A stretch of 64,000 nt of DNA from Phycisphaeraceae bacterium (GCA_020851465.1 JADZCR010000008.1:1-64000), one strand, 5' to 3'. Counted from the first letter of the stretch, positions 36,618 to 63,600 are shown. Translations and numbers: made by a program. The notes: generated by a model from the sequence alone, not told the origin.

Positions 36618-39600
36618 TTAATCATCGACGACTTTGAACTTGTCAATCGAGCCGATACTCCGAATCTTTTCGAGCAGCGATGGCGTACCCACTGAGTGGA
36701 GGGTCAGAGCCTTGATCCTGCTGTTCGATGTCGTCAGATCTCCCAGCAGGCTCGCAGTCGTGCCGTCAAAGCTCTTGAGCGGCCCCATCAGATTGATCTG
36801 CCCCAGATGCGCCGGCTGACTTGAGGTTCCAGCGACTTTGACCGTGGTCCTGGAATCAGTACCGCTGACCGCCAGATTGAAGAGTGATGCGTCGCCCGTG
36901 ACCTGGCCCATGCCCTTGCCGCCGAGGCTGAACTTCACGTCCTGCCCCTGATCGTCACGAAGTTTGAGGGTGACGTTGCTGCGACCGTCGAAATTGCCGA
37001 ACTTCCAGGCCACCGGCAGAGCCGAAGCACTGGCCGTGACATTGTTGCTCTCATCCATCTCGACGATCTGATTTGAAGAGTCCGTGACCAGCAGCAGACG
37101 GTAGCTGCCCGCAGCCAAGGTCGTCGGGATCGTGATCTTGGAGTTGAGCTTCATGCTCGCTTGTGATCCAAGATTGATATCGTGATCGACAACTGTGATC
37201 AGCACGTCGCTCGAATCGAGCAGATCATCGGTCGAAGCGTAGATAGCGGTATCCATCCGGCCGCGGACGCGAAGATTGCCGCTGTTGGTCACCACATAGC
37301 TCACGGAACCCGTATCACCCGGCACAATCACGCTGGGCAGAGAGATCTTCGACAACCGACCGGTGAGATCAGGTCCGTTGACGACCGTCGGCACCGGATC
37401 AACCACGGGGGTCTCCGTCGAACCAACCGCCACCGGCGGAACAACGTCCGGCTCCTGCGGCGGGGTGAACGGCGGCTCTGCCGTCGCAGTACCCTGTCCG
37501 GTGACCTCAGGATTGCTCGGCGGTGTAACGACGGTGATCTCCTCCGAGTCGGACCCGAAGGAATTGACCTGGAAGCTACCACCCTGCACCGGAGCATCAC
37601 CCGTGCCTGCAAGCGTGATCGCTGCGGGGCTGGCCTGCGTCGTGTCGTTGTGCCAGAACCTGAGGCTCGCAGCACGGGCACCCGTTCCGCCTGCGGTGAA
37701 GCTCACGCGGACTATTCGGGACTCGCCCGCGTAGAGCACAAAGCCGGACGTAGTCTCCTGACCAACTACGCTGTACGAGAAATCTCCCGCATCGGCACCG
37801 ATGATCTGCAGTGCAGCGATGGTGAGCGGCTTCTGGCCGTCATTACGGAGCACCACATCCAGCGACTCACCCGTACCCACGAGGTGACTGCCGAATGTCA
37901 GCGCACGATCGTTGGCGATGTCACTGGACTCCTCGACCACCAGATGCGCCGGCGTAAGCTGGAGCACGGTGTGGTTGAGGTTGTTGCCGACGACTGTCGA
38001 ATCAGCGGAGTTGATCAGACCGTCGCCGTTGACATCACCGTTGACGTTATAACCCGTTTGACCGACTACTCTGTTGAGCGTCTTGCGCACCAGCAGGAGA
38101 TCGAGGCCGTTAACCACGCGATCTCCGTTGGCGTCACCGAGCAGGCGGAAGAACGCGACTGCCGCGAACTTACCCGTCTGGCCGTCGCCGAGGTTGTCAC
38201 CGTCCACATCAAGCGTGTTACCGGCAGCATCGGTGACGTTGTCGGGCAGCACATGCAGCTCATACTCGCCATCGGTCAGACCTGCGACGTTGCGGAGATC
38301 GAGCGTCGCCTTGTTAGTCGCTTGATCGATGGTGAGCAGTGCTCCGGTCAACGGCACATTGGTCGTGCCATTGCGCAGGAGCACGAGATCATCAAGAGTC
38401 AACGTGCCGGCCAAAGCCTCGTTGAAGCTCATTTCCAGCACGATGAACGACCGCTGAGCATTGCCCTTGTTGACGACGATCGGCTGGATCAGCGTCGGGC
38501 TTGTGCGATCAAGCGTGAAGGTCAGATCCACGACCGAGGAGGTGTTCTGCGCTGAATCGGTAGCCTGCAGGTGCAGGGTGTGGACGCCGTCAGCCAGCGG
38601 GCCGCCGTTGATTTCCTCAAGCCGCGCCACGCTGAAGTTGAACACACCATTGGCCAGATCGCTCAGCACGTTGGTGAAGTTTGCCACGGGTGTACCGTCG
38701 AACCCAGCCACGAAGCTGGTGATGGCACTGAAATCCGTGACCGTGCCGGTGATGCGGGCGTCGTTGGTGAGGCCATCGCTGGCATCCACACCGGTATCGG
38801 CGACCAGTGCAGCGGTAATGACCGGAGCATCGGTGTCCGTCACCACGGTGCGGGTGATCGTCGCGGTGTAGCTGAGCTCGTTGCCGGCCAGGTCGGTCAC
38901 CTTGGCGGTGAACGAGTTTTCACCCGGCACAAGCAGGATGCCTGTGAAGGTGAAGGTGCCGTTCTGATCCGCGAACGTGGTATCGCCGGATGCGACGAGC
39001 GTAACCCGTTCGCCCGGATCGGTATGACCGATGAGCGTCACGACTGCTTCATTGGTCACCAGGTCGCCATCCGGATCGGTATCCGAATCTGGCGCCAGGT
39101 CGAAGACAGGCTGAGTGACGTTGTTGTCGAGTGTGAAGGTCAGATCGAAGACCGGCGAGATGTTGCCGTAATCATCGGTTGCACGCAGGTGCAGGGTGTG
39201 AGTGCCCTGACTGAGCGGGCTGCCGTTGATCTCCGCCATGCGGGAAGCGCTGAAGTTGAACCCGCCGCCGATCAGATCCGCCAGCACATTGACGAAGTTC
39301 GCCAGCGGCGTTCCGTCAATGCCGGCCAGGAAAGCCGCGATCGGGCTGGCGTCACTGACCGTGCCTTTGACACTGGGGTCACGAGTGATGCCGTCAGTAG
39401 CGCTGCTGCCCGTATCGTTAAGCAGCCCAGCCGTGATGACCGGAGCATCCGTCTCGTTGGGTGCGACACGGGTGAACGTCGAGGTAAAGCTGGATGTATT
39501 CCCCGCTGCATCGCTGACCTGAGTCGTCCAGGTGCTATCGCCATCAGGCAGCGCAATGTCGGTGAAGACAAACCTGCCGGTCTGATCGGCGACCGCTGTC

Positions 39601-42600
39601 TGACCCGTACCCACGAGGGTAACGATCAGGCCCGGTTCGGTCTGGCCGACGAAGCTCACCACCGAGTGGCTGGTCGTGTGGTCGCCATCAGGATCGGTAT
39701 CCGAAGCAGGGTCGAAATCAAACACCGGCTGTGTGGGCGGCGTCGTGTCGAGGGTGATCACGACCGATGCCTCTGACGGACCGGTGTCATTCGTCGCCTG
39801 CACGCGGATCGTGTTGGTGCCTTCGACCAAGATCACGTTATCAAAGTGGTACGAGCCGCTGGCGTCTGTCACAGTGACGCCATCGTCAAATGCACCGTCG
39901 TTGTCCGCATCGAGCAGCACAGTGGTTGACGGATCAGACACGCCCACGATGGTGACAGGCGTGATGTTGGTCACATGATCGCCTGCGGTGCCGGAGTCAC
40001 TCACCGTAGCCAGATCAACCGCAAGGATCGGCGGCTGGCTCGCATCGGTGAGAAGCTGGACGTTATCAATCTGAACGAGGCTGTTATTGGCACCGAAGCC
40101 AAGCAGATCGAACTTCAACGTCACCGCGGTGTCGGCCGTCAGGTGGCTCAGGTCCACATCCACGGTGGTGACAACCGCGCTGGCACCCAGATCCGAGCCG
40201 CCAACCGACCGCTTGGAGGTCAGTTCACCCAGGTAGAACTGGCCGTTGTGCTGAAGGTTCAGCAGCGCGTCGCTGTTGGACAGGTCAATGACCGGGACCA
40301 GCGGCTGGAGCGTCTGCGGATCAACCAGTGCCGCCTCGAACGCATCCGACGGGTTGAAGCTTTCCGCGTTGAGGTCCGCGGTGATGATCGTGAAGCGTAG
40401 AACCTTGATGCCCTGCGGGATGACAAACGTCTGCTCCAAGCCGGAGAAGAGCGGATCGCCTTCGCCGAGCTGACCCAGACCGTTTTGCACGCCCGCATTA
40501 CCGCGGATGATCCAGCCTGAGCCGGCCTGACCCGCGGGAATATCGAACGAACCATTGAGCAGGCCCGGCGGACGATTGGCGAAATCATTACCCGTCGCAT
40601 CTTCGCCGCTCTGATCGATCGTGATGTTGTACGCGCCGCCCAACGGAGCCGGAGCCGTGAATCCGCCGACGATCACCTGCGAGATGCTGTAAGTGCCCGC
40701 AGCCAGATTCGTGAACGAGTAGTTGCCGTTGACGTCGGTGAGTGTGTTGACCTCACCGGCATCAAGCGTGCGATTGCCGTTGACATCGATAAACACGGTA
40801 CGGCCAGACATCGCCGTGTCACCCGTGTTGAACGAGCCGTCGGCGTTGGCGTCGGTAAAGACACGGCCGCTGATGCTGCCAAGCTCGAACGCACCGAGGT
40901 TGGCTGTCGCTGTCGCCCCGCTCGTCGTGGCCACGACCGCCGCCGGCGTGAATGTCCACCCGTCCTGCTTCAACTCACGGATGCTGACCACGCCCGGACC
41001 AAGGTTATCGAATGAGTAGATGCCCTGACCATCGGTGATCATCGAACGCTCGCCGACGTTGAGTTGGCCGTCATCGTTGGCATCAATGAAGACCGTCCGT
41101 CCGGCAAGGCCCGGTTCGCCCGCATCAAGCTGGCCGTCGCCGTCGAGATCGTTGAACAACGTGCCGCTGACCGTTGCTGAGCGGAAGACACCGAAGTTCT
41201 GGTTCGGCGCATCCGTACCCAGGAGCAATTCGACCGTGTTTGCCGCTTCGCTGGGCGAAGACTGAACGTAGCCGGACTGCGCCACCTGTACGACACGGTA
41301 GGTCGCCTGTGAAGGCACGCTGAAGGCGTAATTACCCTGCGCATCGGTGACTCTGCTGATCTCACCGCTGTCGAGAATGTTGTTGTCGTTCTGGTCGAGG
41401 AAGACCGTCCAGCCTGCCATGGCCGGATCAGTCGCGTCCTTGACGCCGTTACCTGCGAGGTCTTCATAGACCGTGCCGCTGATCTGCGCCGCCGGGCCGT
41501 TCTCCACGTGGACCTTACCGGTCGAGTAGGCGGAGAAGACCGGCGCGTTATTGCCGTCCTTGGCGACTGCGTAGATGTAGTAGTCGCCCGCGGGCATTGT
41601 CGAGGTGTCCCAGTTGTAGCCGGAGACACCGTCAAACTCGCCCAGGGCGTCGGCGATGAGTACGCCGTCATATCCGCTGGCGTCCGTGTCGTAATAAAGC
41701 GCGACGCTGGCGTCGGAATCAGGATCGACCGCGTTGTATTCAAGCTGCACCGACGGGCCGGTGACCGTAGTCGAGGGCGACACGATGCCGACCGTCGGAG
41801 CGACCGACTCCACAAATGCCTTGAACTTCACCGTACCCAGCGCGTCCGCGTTGACGATCCGGGCTGTCCAGGTGCCTTCCACCGGATTACGGAACACCAC
41901 CGTCTTGCTCGTATCGCCTGAGTAGAAATCAACCAGTGCGACATCCGACGAAACGGGCAGGTTGTTGCTCAGATAGATGTTGCCCAGCGGATCCTCGATT
42001 TCGAGGATCGTGTCAGGGGCCTCGTTTTCCCACAGTGCTGAGATCATGAGGCTCGGTTCGTCGGCGCCGACGTTGAAGGATCGCGTCGCCGCCGCAGCCG
42101 CGCCGAAGTCCAGCCCTTCGACCGCAGCCCCCACTCCACCGGCGGAACTCGCCGAGCTGATGGAAGCACCGCCAAGGCCGGGGATTTCTTCCTGACTGTT
42201 GATGATGTTGAAGCTGCCGTCGAAGTTGACCTGCACGCCAAGGACGACATCACCGACGATCGGCAGCGTGGCGGTGCCCCAGCCGGCGACAAAGCCATTG
42301 CCGCCGTTGGTGGTGAGCATCCCCTTGCTTCCGCCGAGTGTCTGACCGTCCAGCGGTGTGAGCGGGATCGACGGCAGATGCACCGTCGCATCACCGTACA
42401 TCGACAGATTCATGCTTGAATCCGCGGTGAAGCTGCTGGTCATCGTGACCAGACCGCCGGCCATGGTGAAGTCACCATTGGCCTTGAGGAAGCCCTGGTT
42501 CCAGTTCAACTCTGCATGGCCGTGGCCGGTCGCCAGACCGCTGATGATCTTGATCGTGCCGTCCGCAGCGATCTTGTTCTTGTCGAGCTTGCCCTCGACA

Positions 42601-45600
42601 TCCAGACCGACCAACACGCCCTCGAAGGTTCCACCCGCCCATGATGGCAGCGGGATATTGACCGTCGGGCCGGCGCTGACGCCGATGTGGCCGCCGAACT
42701 CGATCGGCGGGCTTCCGTTCTGGCTGATGTGATCCACCTGCCCACCGATGAGCTGGAGGAACGCACCGGTCGTACCGATGGCGATACCTGGCGGCGGAGG
42801 CGAGTATTCGAGCTTCACAAAGTTGAGCTTGCCGTCCACAAAACCCAGGCCGGCGTCGATCGACATTCCCGGCGGAATCTTGATCTTCGCTTCGCCCTTG
42901 ATCAGACCGGCCACTGTGTCGATCTCAAGCATCGCCTTCTCAAGCTCCCACACGCCGGGAACGATCTTCACATCCTCCAGCTTGATCTTGCCGATCACGT
43001 CCACCTTCGGCAGTCCGCCCGGCTCCTCGGTGATCTGGATGTACCCGCCGTTCTCCTCGCGGAAGTCTGCTTCGAGGTCGAACACCTGCGGCAGATTGAC
43101 CAGACCCTGAATCTTGAACTTCATCACCGGCTGGGTGGAGAAGCTGATCTTCAGACCTTCGCCGTGAATCTTGAGGCCGAAGAATGTAATGTCGAAGTCA
43201 GGGATGGTGATGGCACCACCACTGATGGAGATGCCGTCGCTGTTGACCTCGACGACGTTGGGTTCCGCGATTTCGACGACGATGCCGCCGAACTTGTCGG
43301 GCAGGGTCAGCTTGCCCTGAATCTTGATATCCGGGTCAAAGTCTTCGCCTACTCCGGGGTTGCGATCGGGCACAATCGTGAGCTTGCGCACGTCAACGGC
43401 GACACCCGCGAGAGTAAAGTCATCGCCCTCGTCCGTGGTAATCGAGATTTCCTTGATTCCGCCGTCGGCATACTCGAACTCGACACCGATGGTCTGATTC
43501 GGGGTCTTGAGTTTTGCAGTGCCCTTGGCGGTAGCCTGCGAGAGGTCCGTGCCCAGCGGCTTCTCAACCGCCAGATCGATGTCCTGGAGCTTCCAATCGT
43601 TCCAGATCGGCAGCTCATCGAGGTGGAAATCGAGTTTGATACCCACATCGATGCCGGCATCACTGTTCTTGAGCTTGAGGTAATTGTTTCCGCTGAAGTT
43701 GAATGTCGCGTTGTTGAGCGACGGAATCTTGAAGGTGCCCTTGATCTCCGCCGACTCCTGGCCCGGAGTCGAGAGGTCAAAGTTAATCGAAGCGTCCGTG
43801 ATGGTGAAGTCGATCAGGTTGACCGCCTTCATCTTTTTGTTGCCGGGCAGGAGGATCTTGCCGCCGTCCACGGACAAGCCGTCACCATTGATGATGACAC
43901 CCTTGCCGGTGTTGACATCCACGGTGAGGTTGCCCAGGGCAGCCGGGAGCTTGACACTGCCGCGAATTTCCAGTTGCGGATCCCAATCTTCGCCTTCGCC
44001 GGGCTTGCGGTCGGCGATGAGCTTGGCTTCGGTGATGTCGAAGTCCATACCCATGAGCTGGAACTCAGGGCCGGGGGATGTCTTCACATCGATGATGAAG
44101 TTGTCGACTGTAATCTCGACCTTGATCAGGATCGCCTTGCCGTTGGCCAGCAGTGTGCCCTTGCCGGTGTACTTGTTATTCACCGAATCGACCGTGATCT
44201 CGATCTTCTTGAGATTCCACTTACCGTCCTGCGTGATGTTGACCGGACCGTCGAACTTGATCGCGCCGACGACTTCCGGATCGCCGCCGTCGGTGAGCTT
44301 GATGTAGTTGTCCGGGCCGGAGAAATCGAACGTGAAGTTCTGCACGTTGGGGAACGTGAGCTTGCCGCGGAACTCCGCCCAGCGCGCCGCGGGGCTGATG
44401 TGGAACTTGAGCTTGAGATTTTCGAGCTTCACCGTCATCACGTTGAAGAGCTTCATGTTCCACTTACCGGAAACAGACAGCTCGCCGTCGGTGATTTCGA
44501 CGCCGTCCTTGTTGATCTTGATCGGCTTGTCCTGCGGGACGTCGAAGTAGAACTCGCCCTGGCCGTCCAGACCGAGGATCTCCGCCTTCGGGCCCGTCAG
44601 ATTCAGCGGCAGCGTGATCTTGCCTGCCACCTCCAGCTCCGGATCCCAATCCTCACCCTGACCGGGCTTGCGGTCGGAGCGGAAGACAAACTTCGTCGGC
44701 GCGACATCCATCGAGAAGAGCTTGAATGTCGGCGGTGTCGCATTGGGTGCCAGATCCAGCGAAAGCTCGATCCCCGCCGCAGGCGTGATCTTCACCTTCA
44801 TGTTGAATAGCGCGCCGTTGGGACCGTGGACCTCGGCTTTGCCCGTGACCTTCCACGCATCGACCTCGCTGTTGAGGTCGAGCACGATCTTCTTGACCGA
44901 CCAGTCGGTGTTGATCTGAACAGCATCGATCTTCATCTGACCGACAAAGCCGGTTTCGACCTCTCCGCTGGTGTTGACCGTGAAGCGGAAGTACTGATTC
45001 TTCTGCTCGAGAACATCGACGGTCGTATTCCACTGCGGCAGCAGGAACTGACCGCCGAGCTTGAATGTCCCCAGCGAGCCGGGGGTCGAACCGGGTTCGT
45101 ACTTGCCCCAGATGTCCTTGGCTTCAATCTTGAATCCGCCCAGATCAGCCTTGTAGTCCTTGCCGGCATCGAGGTGGATGCCGCCGACAAGCTGGAATCC
45201 GTTGGCGGAGAACTTGAGGTAATCGTTCTCGCTGTTGACGCTGAAGGTCCAGCCGCCTAAACGATCGGGCAGCTTGGCTTCACCGCGGAACTCAATGTGC
45301 GCATCGGTGACAGGTGCGCCGGGTGCCTTGACGAACTTCATCCCGGCGAACTTGAACTCGACACCGCCGAGCGTGTAGTCACCTGCCAGGTCCTGGCTGA
45401 CTTCATCGAATGCGTTAACGATCTTCTGCGTGAGGTTGAAATGCCACTCGCCGTTCCACAGCGGCGCGGTAATCCCGCCCACCAGCGAGGAGAAGACACC
45501 CTTGGCGTAAACCTCGTCGCGGTTGTACCACATCTGGCCGGAGAGCTTGAGCAGCGGGACAAAGGCTTCGTTCGTGTCTTTGTTGGGCTTGAAGCCGACC

Positions 45601-48600
45601 TGAATTTCGCCGTTGTACTCAAAGCGTTCCAGCGCATCGTTGTAGGTGAACTGTCCGCCGATGGCGACGACCTTGATCGGGTCCAGATCGATCTCACCCG
45701 CGTCCACGGAGAACTTGTTGTTGTACGTCAGCGCGTTGTCGATGTCGTGCGGTTCAAGAACCTTGCCGGGCTTGGCCTGTTCCTCGGTCTGGCCGACCTC
45801 ACGGTCAAGCAGCACGATCCACTTGAGCGACTCCTGATTAATGCCGCTGGGCAGCTCAATGCCGGTCAGGTCTGGCTTGAGGGTTCGCGTCTGTGTCTGC
45901 CCCACGTCCAGCGGGCCGTTCGTGCCCACAAGCTGCGCACCGGAGGCGACCATGACGTGCCAGACGCCATTGGCCAGATCGTCGGGCGCGAGCACGTTGT
46001 CATCGGTACCCAACCAGAGCTGTTCTTCCCAATCGTCGGTCGGCAGCAGCTTGGTATTGCCGTTGTTCTTGACCTTGTAGGTCAGGTTGCCCAGCTTGCT
46101 GTTAAACGCAAGCACCGGCGGGATGATCTCCTGCACGACCAGATCGGGCAGCTTGAGCTTCAGCTCGGCTACCGCGCGGTTGTTGACTTTGTCTGCTTCA
46201 AAAATCTCATCATCCGAATCAACCAGAAGCACCCACTTCATGCCTGTCTTGAGCATGTCGATGGTGACCTTGTTGACTCCCGCGACATCGGCGAGGACCG
46301 GCATCGTCACCTCGATCTGGTGATCGCCGACCGATGAGAACGTCGCTTCGCCCAGCTTGTATTCCCAGCCGTTGCCGTCCACCGCGCCGTCGTCGGTGAG
46401 CCACAATGCTTCCTTCCACGACGTGGCTGCGCCGAGCTTGCTGCCGGCAACCAGTTGCGTCTTGTAGGAAATGGTACTGGCCGCGCCCATAGGCACCGGG
46501 TTGGGGGTAAACGCCTGCACCGCCAGGTCCGGGGTGAGATTGCGCACGGATACGTTGCCCGTGGCCATACCGCTAGGCAGGCCGCCCGTGACGATCTCGC
46601 GGACAAACACGCTCGGTTCAAGCTCATCAAGCGGCTGGCGCTCGAGGAAGAAGTCAGCATGGGTCGCGATGGCGTTTTTGATCGCATCCACGTCGTACAC
46701 AAAAATCGTGTGCGCCGAGCGGTAGCCGATGTAGAGGTATTTTTCATCCGGCGACAGCGCGATGCTGTCAGGGAACGAAGTGTCCACCATTCGAGTCACC
46801 GCCACGAGTCGGCGGTTTGGACCGAATGGATCCATGATGATGCCGATGTTGCCGCCGATCTCCTTGCCCGGATGCATCGCGAAATCGTGCGACGGTACGC
46901 CTTGCAGGAAGGCGTTGTAGTTCGCGGTGAACGCGAATGTCTTGTCCGAAAGTGCCACGACACCCTCGGCATTGTTGGCGTCCAGGTAGTCGCTGTTGCT
47001 GCCGAGGTTCAGGCCTACGTAGGTGATGCCGAGGTTGGCGTCGATCACGCCGAAGCCATTGGTGTCTGACTTACGGTCGGTCACCATCATCGTGCGCGGA
47101 TCGGAGGTAGCCGCCACACCGTAAACTTCCCTGCCCGCCGTAACCGCACCAACGACATTCCACAGAGTGCTGCTGTCCGACTGGACATCAATCACGTACA
47201 CCTTGCCCGGCACACCGCTGCTGGCCTGACCGCCAAAGAGCGTGTCGCCCGGAGCCGCGACAAAAAGCCGCTGGCCGTCCTTGCTGACCGCCATCCCGCG
47301 CAGGCCCTTGGCTGCCGTGCCCACGTTGATGGTGCGGATGTGCTTGTGATAGGTCGCCGACCCAATGCGCGTGTCGATCACGTACACCGAGCCTGTGTAT
47401 TCATCGGAGACGTAGAGATACGAACCGTCGCCGTCGGTGGCGACCCAGAACGGTGCCGCCCCCGCCGGGAGCGCGATGTTGTCCACCGCAGGCGTGCTGG
47501 GATCGATATCCACCTGCTGCAACGCGATGGCGTCGATGACCGCGATCTTTCCGGAGCTGCGCATCGCCACGTAGCCGCGCGTGCCGTCACGGGTGATCGC
47601 CACCGAGCGTGCCCCGGTGTACGCCCCGCCGTCGAGCTGGATGCGAGCCTTGAGATCAAAGGTATTACCGTCGATGACAGCCACGCCCTTATTGCTCGAC
47701 AGAGCGGAGAAGACATACACACTCTCCGGACGGATCATGACCGGCGCGCTGATGACATCTTCCGGCGTCGCGACGGGAGGACCGCTCGGGCCAGGAGCCA
47801 TCACGTTCTGATGCCGACGAACCTGAACCGTCGAGGTGCCCAGCACCACGCCTGGCGGAATGGCGATCTTGATCTGCTGGGCGTTGACCTGAATGATCTG
47901 ATTGCCCTGGACCACCGTCTCACGACCGGTGCCCAGATCCTTGAAGACCACCGAGATGTCATCGATCGAAGAGCCGACCCCTTCCGGCGCGCCCGCCCAG
48001 AGCATCCGCAGAACATCGAGTGTGACCGCAGGTTTCAGGTCGGCGCCGAACGTGGCAAAGCCGAAGCTCATGCTGGAGATGATCGGCTTGCCGCTGGGGT
48101 GATTCGCAGGCAGGACCGCGTTGGCGTAAGAGGTCGTGAAGCTGTTGACCGTCGAGTCAACCTGAACGCCGACGCTCGTGCGCTGCGCCAGACCCTCGGT
48201 CGTGCGCTCTACGATGTCGAAGTTGTAGTTACCAAAGCCCAGCCATGCGGTGAAGTCAGCGAAGATGTTGGCGATGAAGCTGAAGCCGTACGAGATCGAG
48301 TCGAGCACCGTGTTGATGACGAGCTTGATCTTCTGAACAACGCCGCCCTCAGCAGCGCCCAGTGACGGTGTGCTGCTTTCGCTGAATGAGCCGCCGCCCA
48401 CCGGCGCATCGGGTACGTTGACCTCGGTTTCGAGGCTGATGCCCAGCGATGTCGCCGCCAGCGGGTTGTTGAGCTGAATCCTGCCGGCGACCTGAGCCGA
48501 CACGTTGGACGCAGCCGTGGCGACTATGTACTTGCCGCTGTGAAGCACACCCTGCGAAGCCGAGAATGCGTCACTGCGGATCTTGCCGTCGGCACCGACG

Positions 48601-51600
48601 ACGCCTACCTCATCCTGATACCACGCATTGACCGTCTGACCGTCGGCGTCGGTGGTCGTGCCGGCCCGGAGGAAGACCACCTTCGTGCCCGCCGCCAGCC
48701 CGCTGCCCGGCAGAACGATCTGCGCCCGTTTGCTCAGCACCGCACCGCCGAGGTCCAGCTCAAACGCACCGGCGAACTCGAACGGCTCGAACAACGGCAG
48801 GCCGACTTGCTGCTGAGTGATCGGCGTGATGCTTACGAGCGTATCCGACGCCAGCGCACCCTCAGGGATGATGACCTGGGCGCCGCCGCCTTCGACGATG
48901 CCGCCCTGCTGTCCGACTTGTGACGGACTTGTCAGCACCTGCTGGACCACGACCGGAATAACTACCTCAGCCATCTTGTGCGTGACTGTGATCGAAGCAT
49001 TACCCGCGGCAACAGCGGTGACATAGCCGTCTGCGTTGACCGACACGACTGCCGAGTTGCTCGAGTAGTAGTTCGTTCCCGTCGAGCCGAGCGTGACCTC
49101 GCTGCCATCGGGCAGGCGTACGCGCAACTGCTGCTGACCGCCGTTGCTGGCGAGGAGAATCGCAGCCGGGTTGACGTTGACGCCGTTGATCGCCAGCGGC
49201 TGATCCGCAGCCGGGGTTTCACCGACCTGGAATGCTGTCGCCGCGACGATGCCGTGGCTGGAGACGACGATCACGCCGGTGCCGTCCGACAGACCGGTGA
49301 CTCTGCCGTCAGCGCCAACGGCAGCCGATCCGACATTGGTGGAAAGGAAGTTCAGGTAAGACGGCGCGAGTACGACATCCTGCTGATCCTCGAAATCACC
49401 GAGCACCGTCAGGGCCTGGACCTCGCCGATATCGATGCGCGGATTGCGATTGACGATCTGGAGATTGGTCAGTGCTGCCGTGCTGACGTTCACCGTCACG
49501 GTCGCCGGCGCCGAGGTCCCGAAGCCGTCGTCAGCGATAACCTGATAGCTCGCCGTGCCGCTGTAATCCGCAGCCGGCTGGAAGATCACCGTCTTGCCGT
49601 CAGCCGCGAGGCGGGCAGAGCCGTGCTGCACGTTGACCACGCGGTAGTAGATCGTGTCGTCTTCCGGATCGGTCGCAATCGTCGAAGCATCGAAACGGAC
49701 TTCGAGATCCTTGTGCGTGAGCGTATTGCCATCGACGACGACCGGCGCGCGATTGGCGACAAAGCCGTAATTCGCTCCCATGATCTGAACGTCGGTGGCG
49801 TTAACCACGCCGTCGAGATTCGTATCCGCAGCGGGGTTGTAGTTCGCATCACCCGCCTGGCTGCCCAGTGCCAGAGCCTGCGCCGCGCCGTCGAGACCAT
49901 TCACGTTGCCGTCGAGATTGACATCGCCGGCGACGAAGACTTTGAGATCAAACTCACCGGACGAGCCGTTGAGACCTGTCAGCGCGATGCTGTGCAGACC
50001 CGATGCACTGACGGCATAGAGAGCGTATGACACGCCGTTAAGTTCGCGGGCCACCAGTGGCGTAAGGCCGTCCAGACCTGCGACGGCCGGATTGAGCGTA
50101 CTGCCGCTACGGGCGGAAACTCCGATACCGATGAGTACCGTGCCCGATTGCGTAGTCGAAGCCAACTCGGAATCGCGCAGGCTGAAGGCGTAGTTCGCTG
50201 TTTCACCCTGCGTGATTTCACCCGATGTCACCACCGGCGTGAATTGGCCCGTGCTGCCCAGATCGGCAATCACCGGCGACACCAGCGGCAGGCCGGCACC
50301 CGCCGGATATGTCACCACCGCGCCGACACTGGTCGCAGCCGTCAGCGACGGCGTCACCCCGACAACCAGCAGATGCGGATCGGTGAGCGAGTATCCGTAT
50401 CGATTCGACGCACCGGTCGAGAGATTGCGGGCGGCGATCAGATTGCCCGCAGCGTCATAGTTGTAAATCACGCGACTGCTGTCAGGCGCAATGAGTGCCG
50501 AGAGTCGGCCGTCATCGCTGCGCTGCATGCCGATCGTCTCACCATTGGGGGCTGTGATGCCGCCATCGGTGAAGACCATGTGCTTGCCGTCAGCCGTGAT
50601 GATTTCCTGCGTGCCGCGTGTCGCATCGATGAGGTATTTCGTGCCGTCCGGCCCGGTGAGCGTGTAGTCCGCACCGTCAAAGCGGCCGCTGGCGGGGTTG
50701 TACGAACGCGCGGTCTGGAGATCGTAAAGTTTTTCACCGCCAAGAGTGAGCTTGGCGTCGGCGGACTCAAGCGTCCAGCCGTTGCTCAGGTCGGCGACCC
50801 AGGCCGGCGTGTAATAGGACGCCGCACCGACCAGCGTGTGCTTGACAGGCTGGAACGTGAAGCCGACGCGCTGACCCGTGGGCAATGTCAGGAACAGCCG
50901 CGAGCCGATCGACAGCGCGTTGTATGCACCGAACTCCTCACGGCCGGTATCCGGTACCGAGACTTCGATATCAAAGTCGCGCTGCACCAAGCGCCAGCCG
51001 TAACCCAGTCCGTGATCCACGTCACGCATGAGTGAGTCGTACGCACGGTCCAGCTCGAAGCTCGTCCCGTCGAGTATCGCAGCCATGTCCGTCTGACTCA
51101 GCACATACTGGCCGTTCTTGGCGGCCGTATTCACTTCGACCACGACGTTTGCCACCGATGACCGCCCGCCGATATCCGTCGCGGTCAGTCGCAGCGTGTA
51201 GAAGCCGTTGGCAACGAGCGTAGGATCGATGCTCGCAATGGCTGCATCGGCGACATTCGCCGTGCCTTGCGCGAGGACAGCAAAGTCGGCCTGTCCAAAC
51301 CGCGCAATCTCAAGTGTCCAGGAGTCGAGATTGGTATCCGACACGCTGGCCAGCACGTCGCTCGTCGTAGTCAGAGCGTTCAATCCCAGTAGCGGGTTGA
51401 AGCTCACGACCGGCGCGAGCACATCCGCTGGATCACGGACTTTCAGCACCGCATTCGCCTGACCCACCATCCCGTCCACATCCGTGGCGATCGCCTCAAC
51501 AGCAATCTGACCGGGTGTCGTCGGGATGTATTCAGCGCGGCCGAAGGAATCGAGCGCGACGGCCAGCCCATTGACTTTCACGGTCAGGCTGGCGATCTGC

Positions 51601-54600
51601 GCAAGACTTGTCGCCGCCGCGTGGATGATGACCTTCTGGCCGGGAACAGCCGGGAAGCTCGGCGTCAGCTCGATCACTACGGTCGGAGCCTGCGGGGTGA
51701 CCGAAGCTCGGATCAGTGCCGACTGCGTCGTCGAGTCCTGTCCGTCTGACACACCGAAGACCACGATGTAATCACCCGCCTGGCCGGGGCCGGGCGTCCA
51801 GTTCACCTGGCCGGTCTGCGCGTCGATCGTCGCCCCTTCGGGCAAGCCCTGAGCAAAGTAGCTCAACGTCGTGTTCAGGTCGGCGTCGGCGGAAGGAATG
51901 TTGAAGGTCAACGGCTCGCCGAGTACCGCCGCGTGGTTCGACACGTTGAGCGTCGGCGCACGGTTGACGTTATCAATGCGGACCTTCACCGTCGTCGTAC
52001 CCACCAGACCCTGCGGGTCGGTCGCGGTGAATGTCAACGAATACAGTCCGGCCTGTTCATAGCCGGGCTTCCAGGTGAACAGACCGGTGGCGGCGTTGAA
52101 CTTCGCACCCGCCGGCAACGATGAGGTCAATGCCAACGCAAGCGGATCGCCATCAATATCGTTGGCGATCACGTTGAACTGGACCAGTGAATCTTCCCGA
52201 CCTGACTGCAAAGGCAGCGGGGTGACGGTCGGAGCCTGATTGAGGTTGCTGACCGTGATGGTGATCGTGTCGCTGCTGGTCAGGTTGCCGTCGCTGACAG
52301 AGAAGACCACGCCCGGATAGGTTCCAGCATTGAACAGGTGCGGCTTCCACGTGAGCAGACCGGTCGCCGCATCAAAGCTCGCGCCCGGCGGGAGATTGCT
52401 GACGCTGTAAGCCAGCGGATCATTGTCAGGATCGGTCGCAGCCAATTGGATATTCAGCGTGGACAGCTCGGACACCACGCGATTACCAACCGGGCTGAGC
52501 AACGGAGCCGCGTTGGCAGCACGAACCACCAGCGTGATCGTCTCGCTGTCGGATGCGACATTCGCCGGCACGCCGTTGCCGCTGTCGGTGACGGTGAACG
52601 TCATCGACCGTGACCCGATGTCCGCACTCGTCGGGGTCCACTCGAACAGAGCCGTGCCATAGGTTGCCTGCGGCGTGAGAGTCGCACCGGCGGGCAGATT
52701 GGTCGCTTCGAACGTCAGATCGTCCTGATCCAGATCGCTGGCCTTGAGCAGCAGCGAAATCTTCTGGCCGGCGACCGCCACCTTGCTGCCGATGAACGAC
52801 AGGATCGGAGCTTCATTGGGGGAGTTGACCGTCAGCACAAAGGAGCGTTCGGCCACGAGGACCGCGCCAGCCCCGCCGCCGTCACCGTTATCAAACGCCC
52901 GTACGGTGATGGTGTAGTTGCCGCGATCACCGACGCCCGGCGTCATCACGAGTCGGCTTGTGCCGTCGCCGTTATCGGTGAACGTGGCGAACGACGGCAG
53001 CGCGAAGAACGGCAGCGAGCTTTGCGCCGTGAAGGTGATCGGGTTGCCGTCGGCATCGGTTGCCGCGAGGTCGATCGTCAGCGTCTCGCCGCGATTCATG
53101 CTGACGTTATTCAGTTCCGGGATCTCCGGCGCGCGGTTCGTGTTGAACACGTTGATCGGCACGGTGACCGTGCTCGTCAGCGGTACGCCCGTACCGTCGC
53201 CGTTGTCCGTCGCGGTGAAGGTGACGTTGTAGCTTCCAGTCTGGTCATAGGTCGGCGTCCACTTGAACTCGGACGTTTCCAGGTCAAAGGTCGCACCCGG
53301 AGGCAGACCGGAAACCTGATAAGTCACTGACGGAGCTGTACCCTCTAGGTCGGTCAACGAATTGTCCGGCAGGCGGGTGGGCGGAACGTAGCCGGGGTTA
53401 TCCGGGTCGAATGCGAACGCACGGAACGTCAGGAACGCACCCTCCTGAACCTGCCACGTGCCGAGTTGGTCAAACACCGGCGCGCCGTTGACGTTGAGAA
53501 CCGTGATGTGCGTCGTCCGTGTCGTCGAGCGCACGCCGTCGCTGGCAGTGAACGGAATGTCAAACTCGCCCGCCTGAATGTAACGAACATCCCACTCAAA
53601 CAAGCCCGTGTTCGGGTCCAGCAGCGCGCCGGGCGGGAGCAAGGCACTGGAGTAAGTGATCGTCTCGCCCTCGGCGTCGGAGGCCTGCAACTGAATGCGA
53701 AGCTGGTCGCCCTCGCGCACCACGCGGTCGGACGGACGCAGCAGGCTCGGAGCCTGACTCGCCGGAGAAATCTGGAGCGTCGTCGTGACGGTGGACTGAT
53801 GCAGACCATCGCTGGCGACGAAAGTGACGTTCTGATAAATACCCGCCGCGTTCGGGCCGGGCGTCCAACTGAGCGTGTGGCTGGTCGGGTCAAATGACGC
53901 ACCAGCCGGCAGGTGATCCGCCCAGTAAATCAGCGGATCGCTTTCCGCATCGGTCGCGGAAATGACGATCTCAAGCAGTTCGCCTTCCTTGCCGTTGATC
54001 TGCGCAGGCAGCGGAGTAATGCTCGGTGCCTGATTGACTCCCGCCACGGCGATCGTGAACGACTGGATGTCGTAGCCGCCACGGGAATCAAACACCATCA
54101 CTTCAACCGGCGCGTTGGCGGGGCTTGCAACGGTCGGCTCCCAGGAGATCAGACCCGTCGCCGGATCGATCGTCATGCCCTGTGGAGCCTTGTAAAGCAG
54201 GTACGCCAGACCCACGCCGTCGGGGTCGTGCGCTTCAACGTCATAGGCGAACGGCTGGCCGGCGGTCGCTTCCACCACCGCGGTCGAGTCGATGATCGGG
54301 CTGGCGTTGGGATATTCGTTGGCGTAAATGCCGTGGCTCACGTGCAGTCGCTGCGCGACGGCATTGTCGATCGTGATCGTGCGGATGATCGACGACTCAC
54401 CCGGCGCGAGCTTGCCGCCGGGCAGATTGTTGGTCAGGTCGATGACATAGACATCCGGCTCCTCCAGGATCGACGCATCGAGCGGCTCACCTGTGAACGG
54501 CCGCGTCGGAGAAAGCACGAGCATCATCGGCGCCAGCAGGTCGAAGTCACCGATGTTCGTCACTCTCACGTCGTAGGAAGCGGTGTCGCTGTTGCGCTCC

Positions 54601-57600
54601 GACCGCGGATTGATGAACTCGATATTCACGAAGGCCGCGAAGTTGGATACCGTGCGGAACTGCGTCTGGTACGCGCTGCCCAGTTCCAGGCCCTCGGTGC
54701 TCTGGATGCGGCTGGCGACGGTCAGGACAAACTCATCCGTCTGAAGCGCATCGAAGCTGATCTCCGCAGTGCGTGTCGCAGCGTCGTAGATCACCGAACG
54801 AACCGTCACGTAACCGCTCTTGTCTCCGTAGAGCTGGTAGTTATTCAGGTTGATGACCGAATCAGGGTTGCTCGCCGTGTCAACGAGCATGTCGTGATCG
54901 AAGACGACCTGAACCGTGCCGCGCGGCAGAGCGACAATCGCGTCGGCAGGCGGGTTCGTGTCCACGACACGCGGAGCCAGCGATGGATTGAGCACGTCGA
55001 TCTGGTCTGTGAGGCTCACGAGGACGCGACCGTCCTGCGTCGTGCGAACGATGTCACCACGGCTGCCGCCACGGGCGACCGCGACCTTGTTGAGAGTCGC
55101 CAGATCCACCATCGTCAGTTCGCTGCCGATGCCGCCCTTGGGACCATCGTTGGAAGTGATAAAGAGCAGACCCGCCAGCGAGCTGCCTGCTTTGCCGAAG
55201 GCGATCGAGTCCACCGCTGTGGTCAGCTCGACCATGACTTCAGCGCGGCCCTTGCTGTCGAATCGCACGACATCACCGCGGTACGGCCAGACGGCACCCC
55301 AGAGTTTGCCGTCATTGTCAAACGCGAGGTTACCCACGCGGGTATTGCTGAAGTGGGTGAACTTGCCCGTCGCCGGGTTGTAAACCTCGATGCCGTTGCC
55401 CGACGAAACATACAGCCGCCCGGTGCCCGGCTCGACCGCCAGTGCCTGCGTGATACCGTCGCCGATGCGTTCGAGAATCTGGCCGGTGTTGGCGTCGAGG
55501 CGCAGAAGCGCGCCGCCGCCGGTGGTCGCCCAGAGGTTGCCCGTTTCATCGAAAGCCATGTCGAAAACGGGAACGTCGAGCGTCGCCAGAGGTGCGCCAG
55601 CCGCGCCGCCGTCTTTATTGAGCAGGAAAATCTGGTTACGCGCCGGCCCGCCGGAGGCGAGCACCTTGCCGTCAGCGCGGACTGCGATAGCCATCGAGCC
55701 GATGCCCGCCTGGCTCTGACCGATACCGGTGGCGAAGGCGCGACCGGAGAACGGCGCGAACACAACGTCATAATCCGCCGGCTGTGTCAGGGACGGAATC
55801 GACGGAATGCCATCCTGTACCTGGGTAAAGAGCGAGTTCGTCGAGGGGCCGGTCGGCTCCGGTCCCGGGCCGAGGTCTTCCGGTGTCGTGCTCGGAACGG
55901 TCGGAAGCGCACCGAGGTTGGCGCCGCCACCATCATCAGGTGCAGCAATGCCGACCGGAGGCAGCTCTTTGTTGCCTGCGTTGTCCGTCGCCAGGGCGAG
56001 GAACTCATACGTGTGGCCGGCTTCACCGTTGTAAACACCCGACGTGTCGGTTGTCTGGCTCTTCCAGATCATGAAGTCGCCGCCGTCGGTGGCGACGTAC
56101 ACCGTTACCGCCTTGACGCCTGATCCGCTGTCATCGTCCGTCGCGGACCAGTTGAGCAGGTAATCGGTACCGCTGGCGAGTACCTGTGAGGTGAGCGTCG
56201 TGGTCGGCGCGACGCCATCAACGAGGTACTTGACCGTCAGCGTGTCCTGCGGCGGTGCGTTGTTGAAAAGAACGCGCGCCTGTGCGGAGATTTCCGTTCC
56301 CGTAGCAAGCCCATCGCTGGGGGAAACGGTGTAGGTAACGAACGCCGAGCCGCGACCTTCCGCGTTGTTGGGCAGCAGGAAGCCCTTGCTGGTGTCTTCG
56401 AGCAGTTCGCCGGTCTCCGGGTCGATCGCCTGGAAGAGCCAGGTCGCCACGTTGCTGATCGGGTCGAGACCCATGCTCACGCGGAGGATGAAGCCCTTGC
56501 TGGTCGAGAAGTCGAAGTCGCCCTGGAACGCGCCGCGTCCGTCAGGCATGTGCAGCGTGATATCACCCAGCCGGACATCGCCGAGTCGGAATGACCGCGG
56601 ATCGGTGTCGCTGTCGAGCTGTGTGACGACGCGCACTTCCTGCACGGCTGTCGAGGCGTTTGCCGGGTTTTCAAAGTTGATCGTGAACGGCATCGCCTGA
56701 CCGCCGGAGACGCCGGGGATGAAGTTCTGATTGCCCGCACCGATGGGGCCAACGAGTGTCGCCTGACGACCGACCGTTCCCGCGCCGTTGAAGAAGCTGC
56801 TGAAGTCGGGCGGAATCACCGGCGCAAACGGCGGGATATCCACACGTGCATCGCCATAGGGCACGAACACCTTGAAGGTTTCGGTGTGCGTCGGGCGCGA
56901 GGTGTGGAGGTTGAACGTCTCGGGGTCAGGAATGTCCGCTGAGCCCTCGACGCCCGGAGTGTCGCCATACCACTCGTGGATCTTGCTGAAGAAGGAGACC
57001 AGATTGCCGTCGGTAACGATTTGATCGCCGGCGGGACCAACGAGCAGACCGGTCGCCAGCGTGGCCATGAGGCTGATGACCAGCGGATTCTGTCGAATCG
57101 GCGGCGCATCGTCCGGCTCGCGGAGCAGGCCGGCCTGTTCCAGCGCAGCCAGGTACGCATCGCTCCACTGCGTCGGATCGGACGCGAGCACGACCAGTGC
57201 CAGCGGTGAGCTGGAGTCCTGAAGAATCCTGGTTCGCAGTTTCAGAGCCTCAGCCTTCTGCATCGCGATGAACTCATCGCGGGTCAGCGCGGTCGCCGAA
57301 GCCGTGATATTGAACACAAACGCGATGTCCTCATCCTCGATCCCTTCCAGCGGGCCGCCATTACCAGCGACCGACAGGTAGATCGAAGTCAGGCCGGGAT
57401 AAATCTTGTCGAGGTCTTCCGGGCCGTTATCAAGCTGGCCGACAAACTCCGGATACATGTCGTAGATGCGCTGCCGGAGATTGGCGAAGTTGGTCGGATC
57501 CTGTGCCAGGATTTCATTGAGGCCGGGATACGTGTGAATGTTGAAAGTGCGTCCGGCCCATCCGCCGTTGGCCAGATCGAAGATATACGCCGGCGCGAGG

Positions 57601-60600
57601 TTGTTGCCGTTGGTGTTGACCTTTGAGTCGATGCTCGCCCACGGCACGCCGGGCAGCGTGTCTTCGGGGGCACCGTTGATGTTCGAGGTCAGGACGGTGT
57701 ATTGGAGATTGAAAAGAATCTCGTTCTTGCCCAGTTCGGGTGTGCCGATCTGGAAGAAGACGTAGGGCGCATCGACGTTCGCCAGGTTCTTGACCGAGAC
57801 GCCGTAGGTGCCCACCGAGCCGGGTGCCAGCACGCGCGGGCCGCCCATGCCGACAGCCACATCCGCCTCGAGCGCACGCTCGACGAGGTAGCGATACGGC
57901 GAGTAGGCGATTGCGCCGTCAGGGTTGATGACCTTGATGTCGTACAGCCCGTGCGGAGCTTCACGCAGATCGAAAATCGCGATGATCGTCGTGCTGTCAA
58001 CGACCTGATAATTGACCGGCTCACGTTCATCGATGCCGGGACGTGAAAGCTTGACGATCGCACCCTGCTGGAACTGCGCACCGGTGATCCGTGCGGTGAC
58101 GTAGCGGCTGTCGCCGCCGCGATCCGCGCTGACATCGATGATGCTGAAGGGTACCGCTTCGGCGAGGATGACCACCGGCGTATTTTCGCTCGGCTCTGAG
58201 TGGCCTCGCACGAGGATGAAATATGTGCCGGCTGTGGTGCCCGGAATCACGACGGTCTGATCCGGCGCGAGAGGGCCGGAGTAGGAGGCATCGTAGCGGA
58301 AGGCCGTGGGCACATCGTCACCGCGGATGAAAAGTTCGTTTGCTCCGCCGTTGCCGTCGATGGTGACCTTGAGCGTCTGGTTGAGACCGATGGAAACCTG
58401 GAAGAGTCGGTCCTGTCCGGTACTCAGCGTCGTCGCCAGCGGTACGCCCAGTTGAAGTTCATCAACCGTAACGTTGAGCGGGTCAGCCGAGGCGGTCTTG
58501 TTATTCGCCTCGTTAGCGCCTTCGTACACCTCGTTGTAAATGTCAGGGCGGACGATGATGCGGTACTGGCCGGGCTTGGCCGGCGGCAAGGTGGCGGTGA
58601 CGGAGAGCGTGTAGCTGCCGTCCGTGTTGAGCACGCCGGTGTATGTCGCGCGACCCAGCGGGCGGTCGTTGATGTCCCAGGTCGAATCGCTCGACAGATA
58701 CGCTGCATCCGTCCAGGTACCGCTGACCGGATTGCCCCGGTTGGTGACATTCCACGAAACGGTGATCGTGTCCCCGGACCTGGCGGACGGAGGCACGTCG
58801 ATGGCGAGCACCTGGAGATCGGCCGGCGGCGGCTGGTTGATGAACATCTGCACCGCGGTCGGGCGCGCGTTGTTCGACTCGTTATCGCCTTCAAACACAT
58901 CACCGCGCACGCTGTAGCGGGCCGGATCAGTGATGACAAAGACATAGAACGGCCCGGTGAGGTCCTTCGGCGCACGGAACGCCTGCGTGATCTCGTAGGA
59001 GTCCCCCGCTGCCAGTCCGCCCGTGTGCTCGATGTACCCCAGATAACGATCCGCACTCAGATCAAGGAATTGATCGCGCGACAGGTAAACCAGATCCTGC
59101 CACTTGCTCTGACGCGGCGAGGTGTCACCGCCGCCGTTGTTGGTCACGGTGTAGGTCACGTCGAAGAACTGACCGGTCGTCGCCTGCGTCGGGGCGAGCA
59201 CCTGCGTCACCTGGAGATCGGGAGGCGTTGTCAGCAGAATCGGCATTGACGCGCCGGTGATGTTGTTGCCCTCGTCGAAGAACTCGGGCACCCGCGCCAT
59301 GGTCTGATCGACCAGATACTCAAAGCCCACGCCTGCCGAGCCGGGCGGCGTGGAGCCATCGAGGTTTGAATCGGTGAACACCAGCACGTAGAAGTCGCCG
59401 AAGATTCCATCAGGCAGCAGCACATCCAACCCGCCGTCGTACGACGCACCGGGAGCCAGTTGGCCGCTGCGAGCAAACGTGCCGAGTGTTTGGTCATCGT
59501 TCGACAGCGATGCGTCACGGGAAAGGTACACGCGGTCCAGCCAACCGCTCTGGCGTGTCGTGCGGGTGCCCAGATTGGTCGTCGTCCAGCTGACGTGGAT
59601 CGTGTCACCTGAGTGCGGCGTGACGGCAGGCAGGACGAGGTTGGTCACTTGCAGGTCAGGCTCACGATAGGTCACCGGGATCAGCGTGCTGCCCTGGTTG
59701 TTTGCCGGGTCTTCGTAACCATTGCTTCTGAAGTAGTTGTAGTTGCCCTCGTTTCCGCCGGTAGCCAGCGTCTGTTTCGCGCCGGTGTCCACGAAGACGT
59801 AGATGTAGTACTCCCCGCCGATACCTGCGGGCAGCGTGACTTCGCGGGTCTCGGTGTAGCTCTGACCCGTCGCCAGCGGCTGCTTCACTTCATGCGTGAA
59901 ATCACCCAGGGGTGTCGCCCGACCGGGGATAAAGACCGGATCAGGGGAAATAAAGACTCGCTCGTTCCAATACTGCGTCCCGCTCCACATCGTCGGGCCA
60001 AAGTTCTGCACGGTCCAGGAGATCGTCGCCTTTTCGCCTGAGAAGTTCTGGCTGGGCGCCGTGACGGACATGACGCGAAGATCAGCCGGAGGCAGCGGCG
60101 TGACGTTGGTCGCACCAATGTTGGTGTTGTTGTCGGTGTAGGGGCCTTCCCACACTGACGAGCCGGTCTTGACCAGCACGTACTTGCCGTGAGCGTTGGG
60201 CGCGAGTTTGACCGTCAGCGAGGCGCTGTAGGTCTGATCGACACCCAGGTCTCCGCTATGGGCCACATCGCCCAGATACTGCGCGTTCGCGCCGGGCTCG
60301 TTGATCGTCGGCTTGTCGGAGAGATAAATCTGATCACTCCAGCCGCCCGCGTTGGTGGTGGCGTTGCCCTGGTTCTTCACGGTCCAGTTAACCGTGAAAT
60401 CTTCACCGCCCACAGCGGCGGGCATCGCGCTGACCGTCGAGACAATCAGGTCCGGCGGCGGAGTCAGCAGAATCGTGATCGGACGAGCCTTGTAATTGTT
60501 GTTATCCAGCTCGTTGGGATCGTCAGGGTTGATGTTGATGTCCAGCGTGTCTTCCGTCACCACCTGATACGAATCGCTCCAGGGTGTGATGAAGTACTGG

Positions 60601-63600
60601 CCCGTGATCTGACTGGGCAGACGCACCTGCACCGTCTGCTCATAGCTTTCTCCGATTTCCAGCGAACCGCTGTGACCGAAGCTGCCCAGCAGCGTGTCGC
60701 CGGGGACCGATGATCCGTCGCTGAGCGTGATCGTCGGGAACGGACGACCGCGATCCGTCGTCAGCCAGATCGTGTCCGTCCAACCGTCCTGATCGGTTTC
60801 ACCGATGCCGAGGTTGGTGACTTTGTACTTGACCGTGATGACCGACCCGTCAAACGCCTGGTCAGGTGCCGCGACGTTGCTGGTGACCAGATCGGCGGGC
60901 GGCAGCGGGTTGACATTGACCTGTACCGCGGCGGTGTTGTTGTTGTCGTTGGGGTACTCGTCAACCGAGTTACCCGTGTCGGTCACGACAATCAGGAACA
61001 CCGGACCACGGAAGCGACGCGGGATCACCAAGCTCGGCGTCGTGCTCTGGTACTGCTCGCCCGGCAGCAGTGCCGACTCATTCTGAAGCGAGCCGATGAG
61101 GATGTCGTCACCTGAATAGGTGCTGTCGAGCGAGAGATAGACGTTGTCCGTCCAGCGTCCGCCGGCCGCCACCGTGCCCTGATTGATGACGGTGAAGTTA
61201 AGCGCAACCGTGCCGCCTGCCTGAACCGTGTCAGGCGCGGTGACACCCTGCACCTGGAGATCAGCTCGCGGCGAGAGCGTGACGGTGATTGTCTGATCGT
61301 CGAGCGTCGTGTTGTTAGTGGTCGCACCGTGTTCGTAAAGCGAATTGTTTGAGTTGGTCGCCACACCGATACGGAACGTGCCCTGAATGTTCGTCGGGAG
61401 CGTGACCTGTTCGGATCGCTGATAAAACTTGCCAGCCTGGATCGGATTACCGAAACCGAACGAACCGAGCGAGATCTTCGGAGCGTTCGGATTACCCGCT
61501 TCCTGCATGTAGATGTAGTCGGACCATCCGCCGATGGCGTCACCCGCGCCCTGATTGGTCACGGTCCAGCTCACGTCGATCTTGGAGCCGGAAAGCACAT
61601 CGGTCGGCGCAACGATGTCGGTCACCGTCAGGTCGGGCGGCGGAGTCAGCGAGATGCTGATCGGGCCGCTCACGCGGCGGTTGAGTGCGTTGTTGTAGAT
61701 GAACTCGTAAGGGCCACCGGTGACGATGACGACGTAATACGTACCGCTGATCCCTTGCGGGAGCGTCGCCTGACCGGTGCGAGTGTAGGTATCGCCCACC
61801 GCCAGCGCGCCGACGTGGTTGAAATTGCCCAGATGGGTGACGATGTTGGCCCCTTCCGCATCCGTGGCGAGATAAGCCGAGTCCCACCACGACGAAACAT
61901 TCGTCGTCGCGATGCCGTTGTTGGTCACATCCCAGGTGAAGCTGAACGACTGCCCGCTGGAGGCTGTGGCGTCGGCGCTGGCGGCTGCCACCTGAAGATC
62001 CGAGTACGGAATCGTTGTGACATCGAAGAAGCTCGCAGGCTCAGCTGCGTTGTTGGCTTCCGAGCCGTTTTCAAACACGACGTCGTTCACATCCGTGCGG
62101 ACGAACAGGTGGTAACGACCCTGGAACGCGGGCGGCAGGCTGATCAACTCGCTCCGCGTGTAGCTCTCCCCCACCGCCATGGCACCGGAATGGGCGAAGG
62201 TCGCCAGCGTGATGTCATCGCCGTCACCGACGATGGCGTTCCCGGAGGCGACGATGCGGTCGTTCCAGCTTGAAGTCTGACCGGCCCCCGTGCCGACGTT
62301 GGAAACCGTCCAGCCAACGGTCACCTTGAGCGGGTCGCCGATGGACATCGCCGGTGCGGTCACGTTCGACACCGCCAGGTCCGCGTATGGCGCGAGCGTG
62401 ACATTGAGCGCTGATGATGCGACGTTGTTGGTTTCCGCACCGTATTCGTTGACCGTGTTGGTCGCGTCGCTGACAACCAGCAGGTACCAGTTACCCGAAA
62501 CCTCAAGCGGAATCTGGACATTGGTCGAACGCAGCAGGTTGGAGCCGCTGGCGATCGGGCCGTTGGCGGCAACCTCGGCCAGGAGTTTGTCGCTGCCGTC
62601 GAGCGTGGTGTTCTGCGAAAGATAAACGCGATCCACCCATGCGCCCACGGCATTGGCGGTGCCGACGTTGGCGTCACGCCAGGAGACGTTGATGCTCGAG
62701 CCGGACTGCGCCGCCGTCCCCGATGCCGGGCTTTCGATCTGCGGCTGGAGATCGGAGTGGCCGATGGCGACGACACCCGCGCTGGCGCGGAGGTTGTTCC
62801 CTTCCTTTGAGCCTTCGTAAACAGCATTGTCCGAATCAGTGACGACGATGATGCGATAGTTGCCGTCGCCGAGATTGGGAATCGTGACATTCGCAGCCGC
62901 GGAGTAGCTGGCGCCGGACGCCAGATCAGCGGCGCGCTGGACGGTCGCCAGCAACGTCGCACCCGAAAGCGTGCCGGTGGTGGAAATGTAAACACGATCC
63001 ACCCACGGACCGGGCGCGACGCCCGTACCGCTGTTGGTCACGGTCCAGTCCACCGCCACGGTCTGACCGGGCTGCGCGCTGATCGGAGCGTTGAGACCGG
63101 AAACCTGGAGGTCGGGTTCGGGCGTGGCCGCGATGGTGATCGGATCAACTGTTCGCGCGCTGTTGTTGTTGTCGAACTGATACTCGTAAACGTTGTTGTT
63201 GAAATCGGTGATGACGAAGACGTGGAAATTACCCGACACGCCGTTGGGTAACTTCACCATCGCTGTCGTCGAGTAGGTCTCGTCGGCGGCCAGATTGCCG
63301 CTGTGATTGATCAGACCGACCTGCACGTCGTTGGCGTCGAGCGTGTCGTTGGCGGAGATCATGATGCGGTCGTTCCAGCTCGTCACGTTCGTTGTGCCGA
63401 CACCCTGGTTCCGCACACGCCAGCCGATTTCGACATTCTGACCGCTCTGAGCGTTCACCGGAGCGGACACCGTCTCGATGATCAGGTCCGCGTAAGGAAC
63501 CGTCACTTGAATCGGTGCCAGCGCGGATCGGTTGTTCAGCGGAGAGCCGCTCTCGGAAACATCGTCGGCGGCGTCAGTGACCACGTACAGCTTGAAAGTG

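Follow-up and report, generated by a model that had tools for sequence, protein, structure and literature searches.

The stretch of DNA analyzed here, referred to as the window, is 64,000 nucleotides long, comes from a Phycisphaeraceae bacterium (GCA_020851465.1 JADZCR010000008.1:1-64000), and holds part of one giant open frame (Table 1). Planctomycetes have giant genes in large numbers, mostly for surface proteins or PKS/NRPS, and for the most part these genes lack an explanation (PMC5177795). Within the 11,895-residue frame lies a repeat-bearing block of about 1,180 residues (residues 8856 to 10037; window positions 45740 to 42195, minus strand). Adjacent parts of the giant protein gave strong Pfam matches to CARDB, He_PIG, Big, dockerin, SdrD_B, and other families, showing that the Pfam scan was valid on this protein. 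The entire translation lacks cysteine, and the lysine content is 7.9% in the block, compared with 1.5% elsewhere in the protein. At the N terminus of the window protein, a LEPR-XLL-like sequence, LEGLEQRVML, is present at residue 60; the LEPR-8K model scored 12.5 bits there, below its NCBIfam cutoff of 17. Another stretch of the giant protein (about 51059 to 50000, minus strand) resembles a YD/RHS-repeat fragment (FELDRAYDSLMRD...), and Pfam listed no RHS family for it.

The earlier note had described four units recurring at 215 to 221 residues, three of them with a DRxPGxGEDxDP motif, and this description was borne out by profiles built from the units themselves. On the minus strand, the motif is found at 44675, 44012, and 43367, at spacings of 221 and 215 residues, and a fourth, motif-less unit lies upstream of the other three, giving four units between 45377 and 42786 (minus strand) with a period of about 215 residues. 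Profiles made from three units and scored against the remaining one gave 74, 135, 142, and 135 bits, the value of 74 belonging to unit 1. The best of 500 shuffles reached 9.6 bits, and the best match elsewhere in the giant protein reached 6.7 bits. With scores this far over both controls, there are four real units, confined to the block within this protein. What did not stand was the idea of a simple 215-residue repeat, since each unit consists of two half-repeats, A and B, and the array is flanked by an N-cap and a C-cap. Across units, half A compared with half A gave hhalign probabilities of 93 to 99.7%, half B compared with half B gave 27 to 98% depending on the pair and direction, and pooled A compared with pooled B gave 95% (E 3.5e-8). 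This A/B homology indicated that the real repeat is the half-unit of roughly 80 to 135 residues, the 215-residue unit being a pair. The C-cap is probably also related to half B (hhalign, 76%).

Table 1. Features of the giant open frame and of the repeat block in the window.
Feature	Window position	Strand	Basis and remarks
Giant ORF, part in window	36618..63998	minus	11,895 codons in all; extends to contig position ~72305
N-cap, ~121 residues	45378..45740	minus	alignment; conserved in relatives, including one-unit ones
Unit 1 half A, degenerate, without DRxPG motif	45144..45377	minus	leave-one-out, 74 bits for unit 1
Unit 1 half B	44739..45143	minus	half-repeat comparison
Unit 2 half A, motif DRKPGQGEDWDP at 44675-44640	44451..44738	minus	motif and half-repeat comparison
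Unit 2 half B	44064..44450	minus	half-repeat comparison
Unit 3 half A, motif DRKPGEGEDWDP at 44012-43977	43827..44063	minus	motif and half-repeat comparison
Unit 3 half B	43419..43826	minus	half-repeat comparison
Unit 4 half A, motif DRNPGVGEDFDP at 43367-43332	43185..43418	minus	motif and half-repeat comparison
Unit 4 half B	42786..43184	minus	half-repeat comparison
C-cap, ~197 residues	42195..42785	minus	alignment; with unit 4, the most widely conserved part; pLDDT mostly 75-92
PPC-like and Ig-like stretch after block	41490..42080	minus	visual comparison; same order in several relatives; no Pfam call in window

The DRxPG motif is located in a loop of half A. It had been called almost invariant, which holds for three units of the window protein and fails among relatives, where the exact form is absent: of the 26 first halves aligned, 3 had DRxPGxGEDxDP, and these were all from the window's own protein. 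When the core was relaxed to D...(F/W/Y)(D/E/Q)P, 16 of the 26 had it, and many relatives retain just D...(F/W)(D/E)P without keeping the GED part. The suggestion that the acidic motif is the signature of a calcium site is accordingly weakened, because its acidic residues are not conserved in the relatives. The commonest residue of the block is glycine, at 12%, and for this reason an earlier remark on a lack of Gly-rich turns was unfair to the sequence. In the alignment of unit 4 and the C-cap, Gly, Pro, and aromatic residues account for nearly all of the invariant columns. One Asp is also invariant, and the columns include no common group of polar residues suggestive of catalysis.

The block is a genuine module, and its repeat family is undescribed in the databases searched (Pfam, NCBIfam, PHROGs, and PDB sequences), as the earlier note had supposed. 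Scans of the block against Pfam, NCBIfam, and PHROGs returned nothing at gathering level or near the cutoff, and sequence searches of the PDB, profile searches included, gave no significant match. CARDB and Ig families of Pfam did not match the block even at E 10, and hhalign against Ig and CARDB profiles gave probabilities below 2%; on both grounds, an Ig or CARDB identity was rejected, in agreement with the earlier view that an Ig-like unit is the poorer fit. No AsmA, TamB, or related Pfam profile was listed in the block or in 13 relatives. A known phage or viral family was likewise rejected: the window protein matched nothing in PHROGs, and the phage and viral contigs searched contained no copy of the block. 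BFVD gave weak structure matches to the block, none with a TM-score above 0.33.

Relatives of the block are scattered patchily over Planctomycetota and are also encoded by two plasmids of cyanobacteria, mostly in large proteins whose sequences have secreted or surface features. Besides the window's own genome, the block was found in 3 genomes of 50 in the same family, in 9 of 396 in the same class, and in 3 of 391 in a phylum sample; the named match among genome contigs was an uncultured Phycisphaerales bacterium. The cyanobacterial matches come from a search of plasmid sequences. Plasmid Cy782203 of Gloeothece verrucosa PCC 7822 encodes a 5,942-residue CARDB protein with four units, which covers 98% of the block at E 2e-145, and plasmid2 of Calothrix NIES-4105 encodes a 1,592-residue protein with one unit. 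The Gloeothece gene (NC_014502.1, 83542-101370) lies on a plasmid typed as conjugative, with an ISL3 transposase gene beside it and a gene for a PEP-CTERM protein after it. The proteins that carry the block also contain dockerin, CARDB, Calx-beta, and RTX repeats, and these partners, together with the LEPR-XLL-like start, make it likely that the host proteins are exported. The earlier note had suggested that a functional head might sit at about this site, a role that the position of the block does not establish: the block is internal in the window protein, near the N terminus in Gloeothece, and nearly the whole protein in one planctomycete. Genome G364 has a 1,507-codon frame that is mostly block plus dockerin.

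Copy number and the order of units were informative. Four units are present in the window protein, in genomes G024 and G348, and in Gloeothece, and very likely also in G017, whose array is interrupted within unit 2 by a contig break. Three units were found in G364, two in G023 and in a second protein of G017, one in several other proteins, and about 0.7 of a unit in one protein of G024. A maximum-likelihood tree, several deep branches of which are only moderately supported, sorted units across genera by their position in the array and not by the protein in which they occur. Indeed, labels of first, middle, and last required 4 changes on this tree, compared with 14.5 when shuffled. The two-unit proteins have units of the unit 1 and unit 2 classes without a C-cap, and the one-unit proteins have a unit of the unit 4 class or near it, together with an N-cap and a C-cap. 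Three of the Gloeothece units fell in the unit 3 group and one in the unit 4 group. This grouping by position led us to reject recent tandem amplification and indicated that the array is old and ordered, varied by the gain and loss of particular units.

Structure prediction gave a consistent picture of strands. An AlphaFold2 model of the whole block, made from 13 sequences, had a pLDDT of 71.8, a pTM of 0.36, and 85 strands, with no helix of four or more residues. Two joined units, the construct proposed in the earlier note and modeled from 17 sequences, gave a pLDDT of 86.2 and a pTM of 0.58, were all beta, and showed the strand pattern twice. The block is thus modeled as all-beta, mostly in long amphipathic strands. 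The 50 strands of at least 7 residues in the model averaged 11 residues, and their alternation index was 2.99, compared with 1.61 (standard deviation, 0.17) for shuffled sequences, in line with the alternating strands that had been noticed by eye. On strands taken from the model, Ile, Gly, Val, Leu, and Phe lie on one face and Lys, Glu, Thr, and Asp on the other. Foldseek with the whole block returned LptD, ApoB100, and pilus ushers; the lowest E value was 2e-6, and none of these hits had a TM-score above 0.20. The two-unit model had no match in the PDB at E<0.001. VIA-align gave Z values of about 12 to 15 to ApoB, VDAC, Tom40, and similar sheets, with an rmsd mostly of 8 to 25 Å, so that at most an up-and-down strand order is shared, and not a fold. 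The groove half of the earlier "beta-groove or beta-solenoid" fits these antiparallel sheets and barrels. No beta-solenoid was found among the top fold-search rows, although such a fold may still apply. An AsmA or TamB groove was likewise missing from the top rows, apart from a TamAB hybrid barrel in the two-unit search, which carries no weight for or against a groove.

The reading that we prefer, to which we give about an even chance, is that the block is an extended, capped, continuous amphipathic beta-ribbon of secreted or surface giant proteins, possibly groove-like. A run of homologous half-repeats, two per 215-residue unit, would stand between the N-cap and the C-cap, and half-repeats and caps together would form one long, mostly antiparallel beta-meander with an Ile/Gly/Val/Leu/Phe face and a Lys/Glu/Thr/Asp face. 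Such a ribbon or groove would be extended and curved, its apolar face being shielded by the curvature or holding an apolar partner, and its length would depend on how many units there are and of which kind. The position-sorted units of the tree fit a ribbon, since neighbors and ends would be specialized. We infer both the curvature and the continuity of the sheet across units, because the alignments behind the models were shallow (13 rows for the whole block and 17 for two units) and the whole-block pTM was low at 0.36. The role of the ribbon may be to hold a ligand or to act as a stiff surface spacer.

Three other explanations were weighed against the ribbon. In the main one, the block is a diverged segment of the repeating-beta-groove (AsmA/TamB/YhdP) type, moved from periplasmic lipid-transfer proteins to giant secreted ones and still binding lipids or other hydrophobic molecules in its groove. 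We regard this origin as doubtful, although long amphipathic strands fit an AsmA-type groove and half B compared with an alignment of 20 AsmA/YhdP-like proteins taken from this bacterium's family and order scored 34.4 (105 columns, 31%, E 5e-4), above a reversed profile (25.7), the best of 25 block shuffles (22.2), Omp85 (15.8), and CARDB (14.6). At 31% this similarity is not significant, and it fell to 23% with a larger half-B set, for which the reversed control scored 26. Moreover, half A and whole units gave less than 5% and the C-cap 3%. AsmA/YhdP-like proteins are present in 59 of 61 genomes and the block in 4 of 61, the Chorein-N start is absent from the block, nothing points to a place between two membranes, and no AsmA-type chain was ranked high by the fold search. 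The profile similarity of half B is therefore best taken as a faint lead and not as membership.

Separate beta-sandwich or barrel domains strung together, of a family not yet described and serving as a mechanical spacer like the surrounding Ig and CARDB domains, would suit the setting of the block among CARDB, He_PIG, SdrD_B, and Big domains and the variable number of units, from one to four. An ordinary two-layer beta-sandwich is also expected to show amphipathic alternation, which counts against the ribbon. We nevertheless consider such a string unlikely: the profile comparisons showed no Ig or CARDB similarity, the lysine content is unlike that elsewhere in the protein, the units are position specific in the tree and not interchangeable, and the fold searches returned antiparallel meanders and not Ig folds. 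An enzyme or a specific adhesin head appears improbable. Its activity would lie in the two parts conserved most widely, the last unit and the C-cap. Such a head would agree with the retention of a unit of the unit 4 class and the C-cap in one-unit relatives, and with one relative that has a lipase-like segment ahead of an incomplete unit and the C-cap. Against it are the Gly, Pro, and aromatic character of almost all invariant residues and the two-unit proteins of G023 and G017; their lack of a C-cap means that the C-cap is not always needed. The lipase-like segment, with the sequence GHSLGGALSQL, lies at about residues 900 to 1100 of a 2,878-codon frame on contig C57 of G024.

A bolder proposal, in our judgment rather unlikely, is that lipids or other hydrophobic molecules are carried outside the cell in a groove built from the ordered units, making the block a new secreted, capped beta-groove family of planctomycetes and cyanobacteria. 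If so, it would be an extracellular equivalent of AsmA-type or ApoB-type lipid carriers, that is, a groove-type hydrophobic carrier outside the cell; otherwise, it is still an undescribed, ordered family of beta-repeats. In either case, the module can be isolated from its giant protein and is fit for separate study, having clear ends and short natural versions, namely one unit plus caps, the 1,507-codon frame of G364, and the 1,592-residue Calothrix protein. The homolog on a plasmid of a named strain, Gloeothece PCC 7822, further makes the module accessible.

Several known systems resemble the block in part. AsmA (PF05170), TamB (PF04357), and YhdP share with it repeated long amphipathic beta-strands, and for half B there is the faint, above-control profile similarity; the block differs in having its own caps and no significant match to these families. 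The AsmA/YhdP-like protein, of 1,282 residues, is single-copy and present in nearly all relatives, whereas the block is patchy and occurs in giant proteins of a secreted type. In the window's genome, the AsmA/YhdP-like protein (G000:C2:192888-194822) matched the AsmA profile below the cutoff. The beta-belt of apolipoprotein B-100 is, like the modeled block, a long antiparallel strand meander, and it headed the VIA-align list for the model of the whole block (Z 14.8, 284 residues, rmsd 11.9 Å), with barrels close behind (Z 12 to 13). However, ApoB-100 is an animal lipoprotein with 4% identity in the alignment and no sequence relation to the block, and the rmsd is too high for a claim of similar shape. 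LptD, pilus ushers, VDAC, and Tom40 show an up-and-down antiparallel strand order over 200 to 300 residues, as the block does, but they are closed membrane barrels, with an rmsd of 8 to 28 Å to the block model; the block has no Omp85 profile similarity, and Lys, Glu, and Asp abound on its polar face. Lastly, a unit of the block is lysine-rich, about twice as long as a CARDB, He_PIG, SdrD_B, or Big domain, and without profile similarity to any of them, yet it shares with these domains both the same polypeptide and a repeat architecture.
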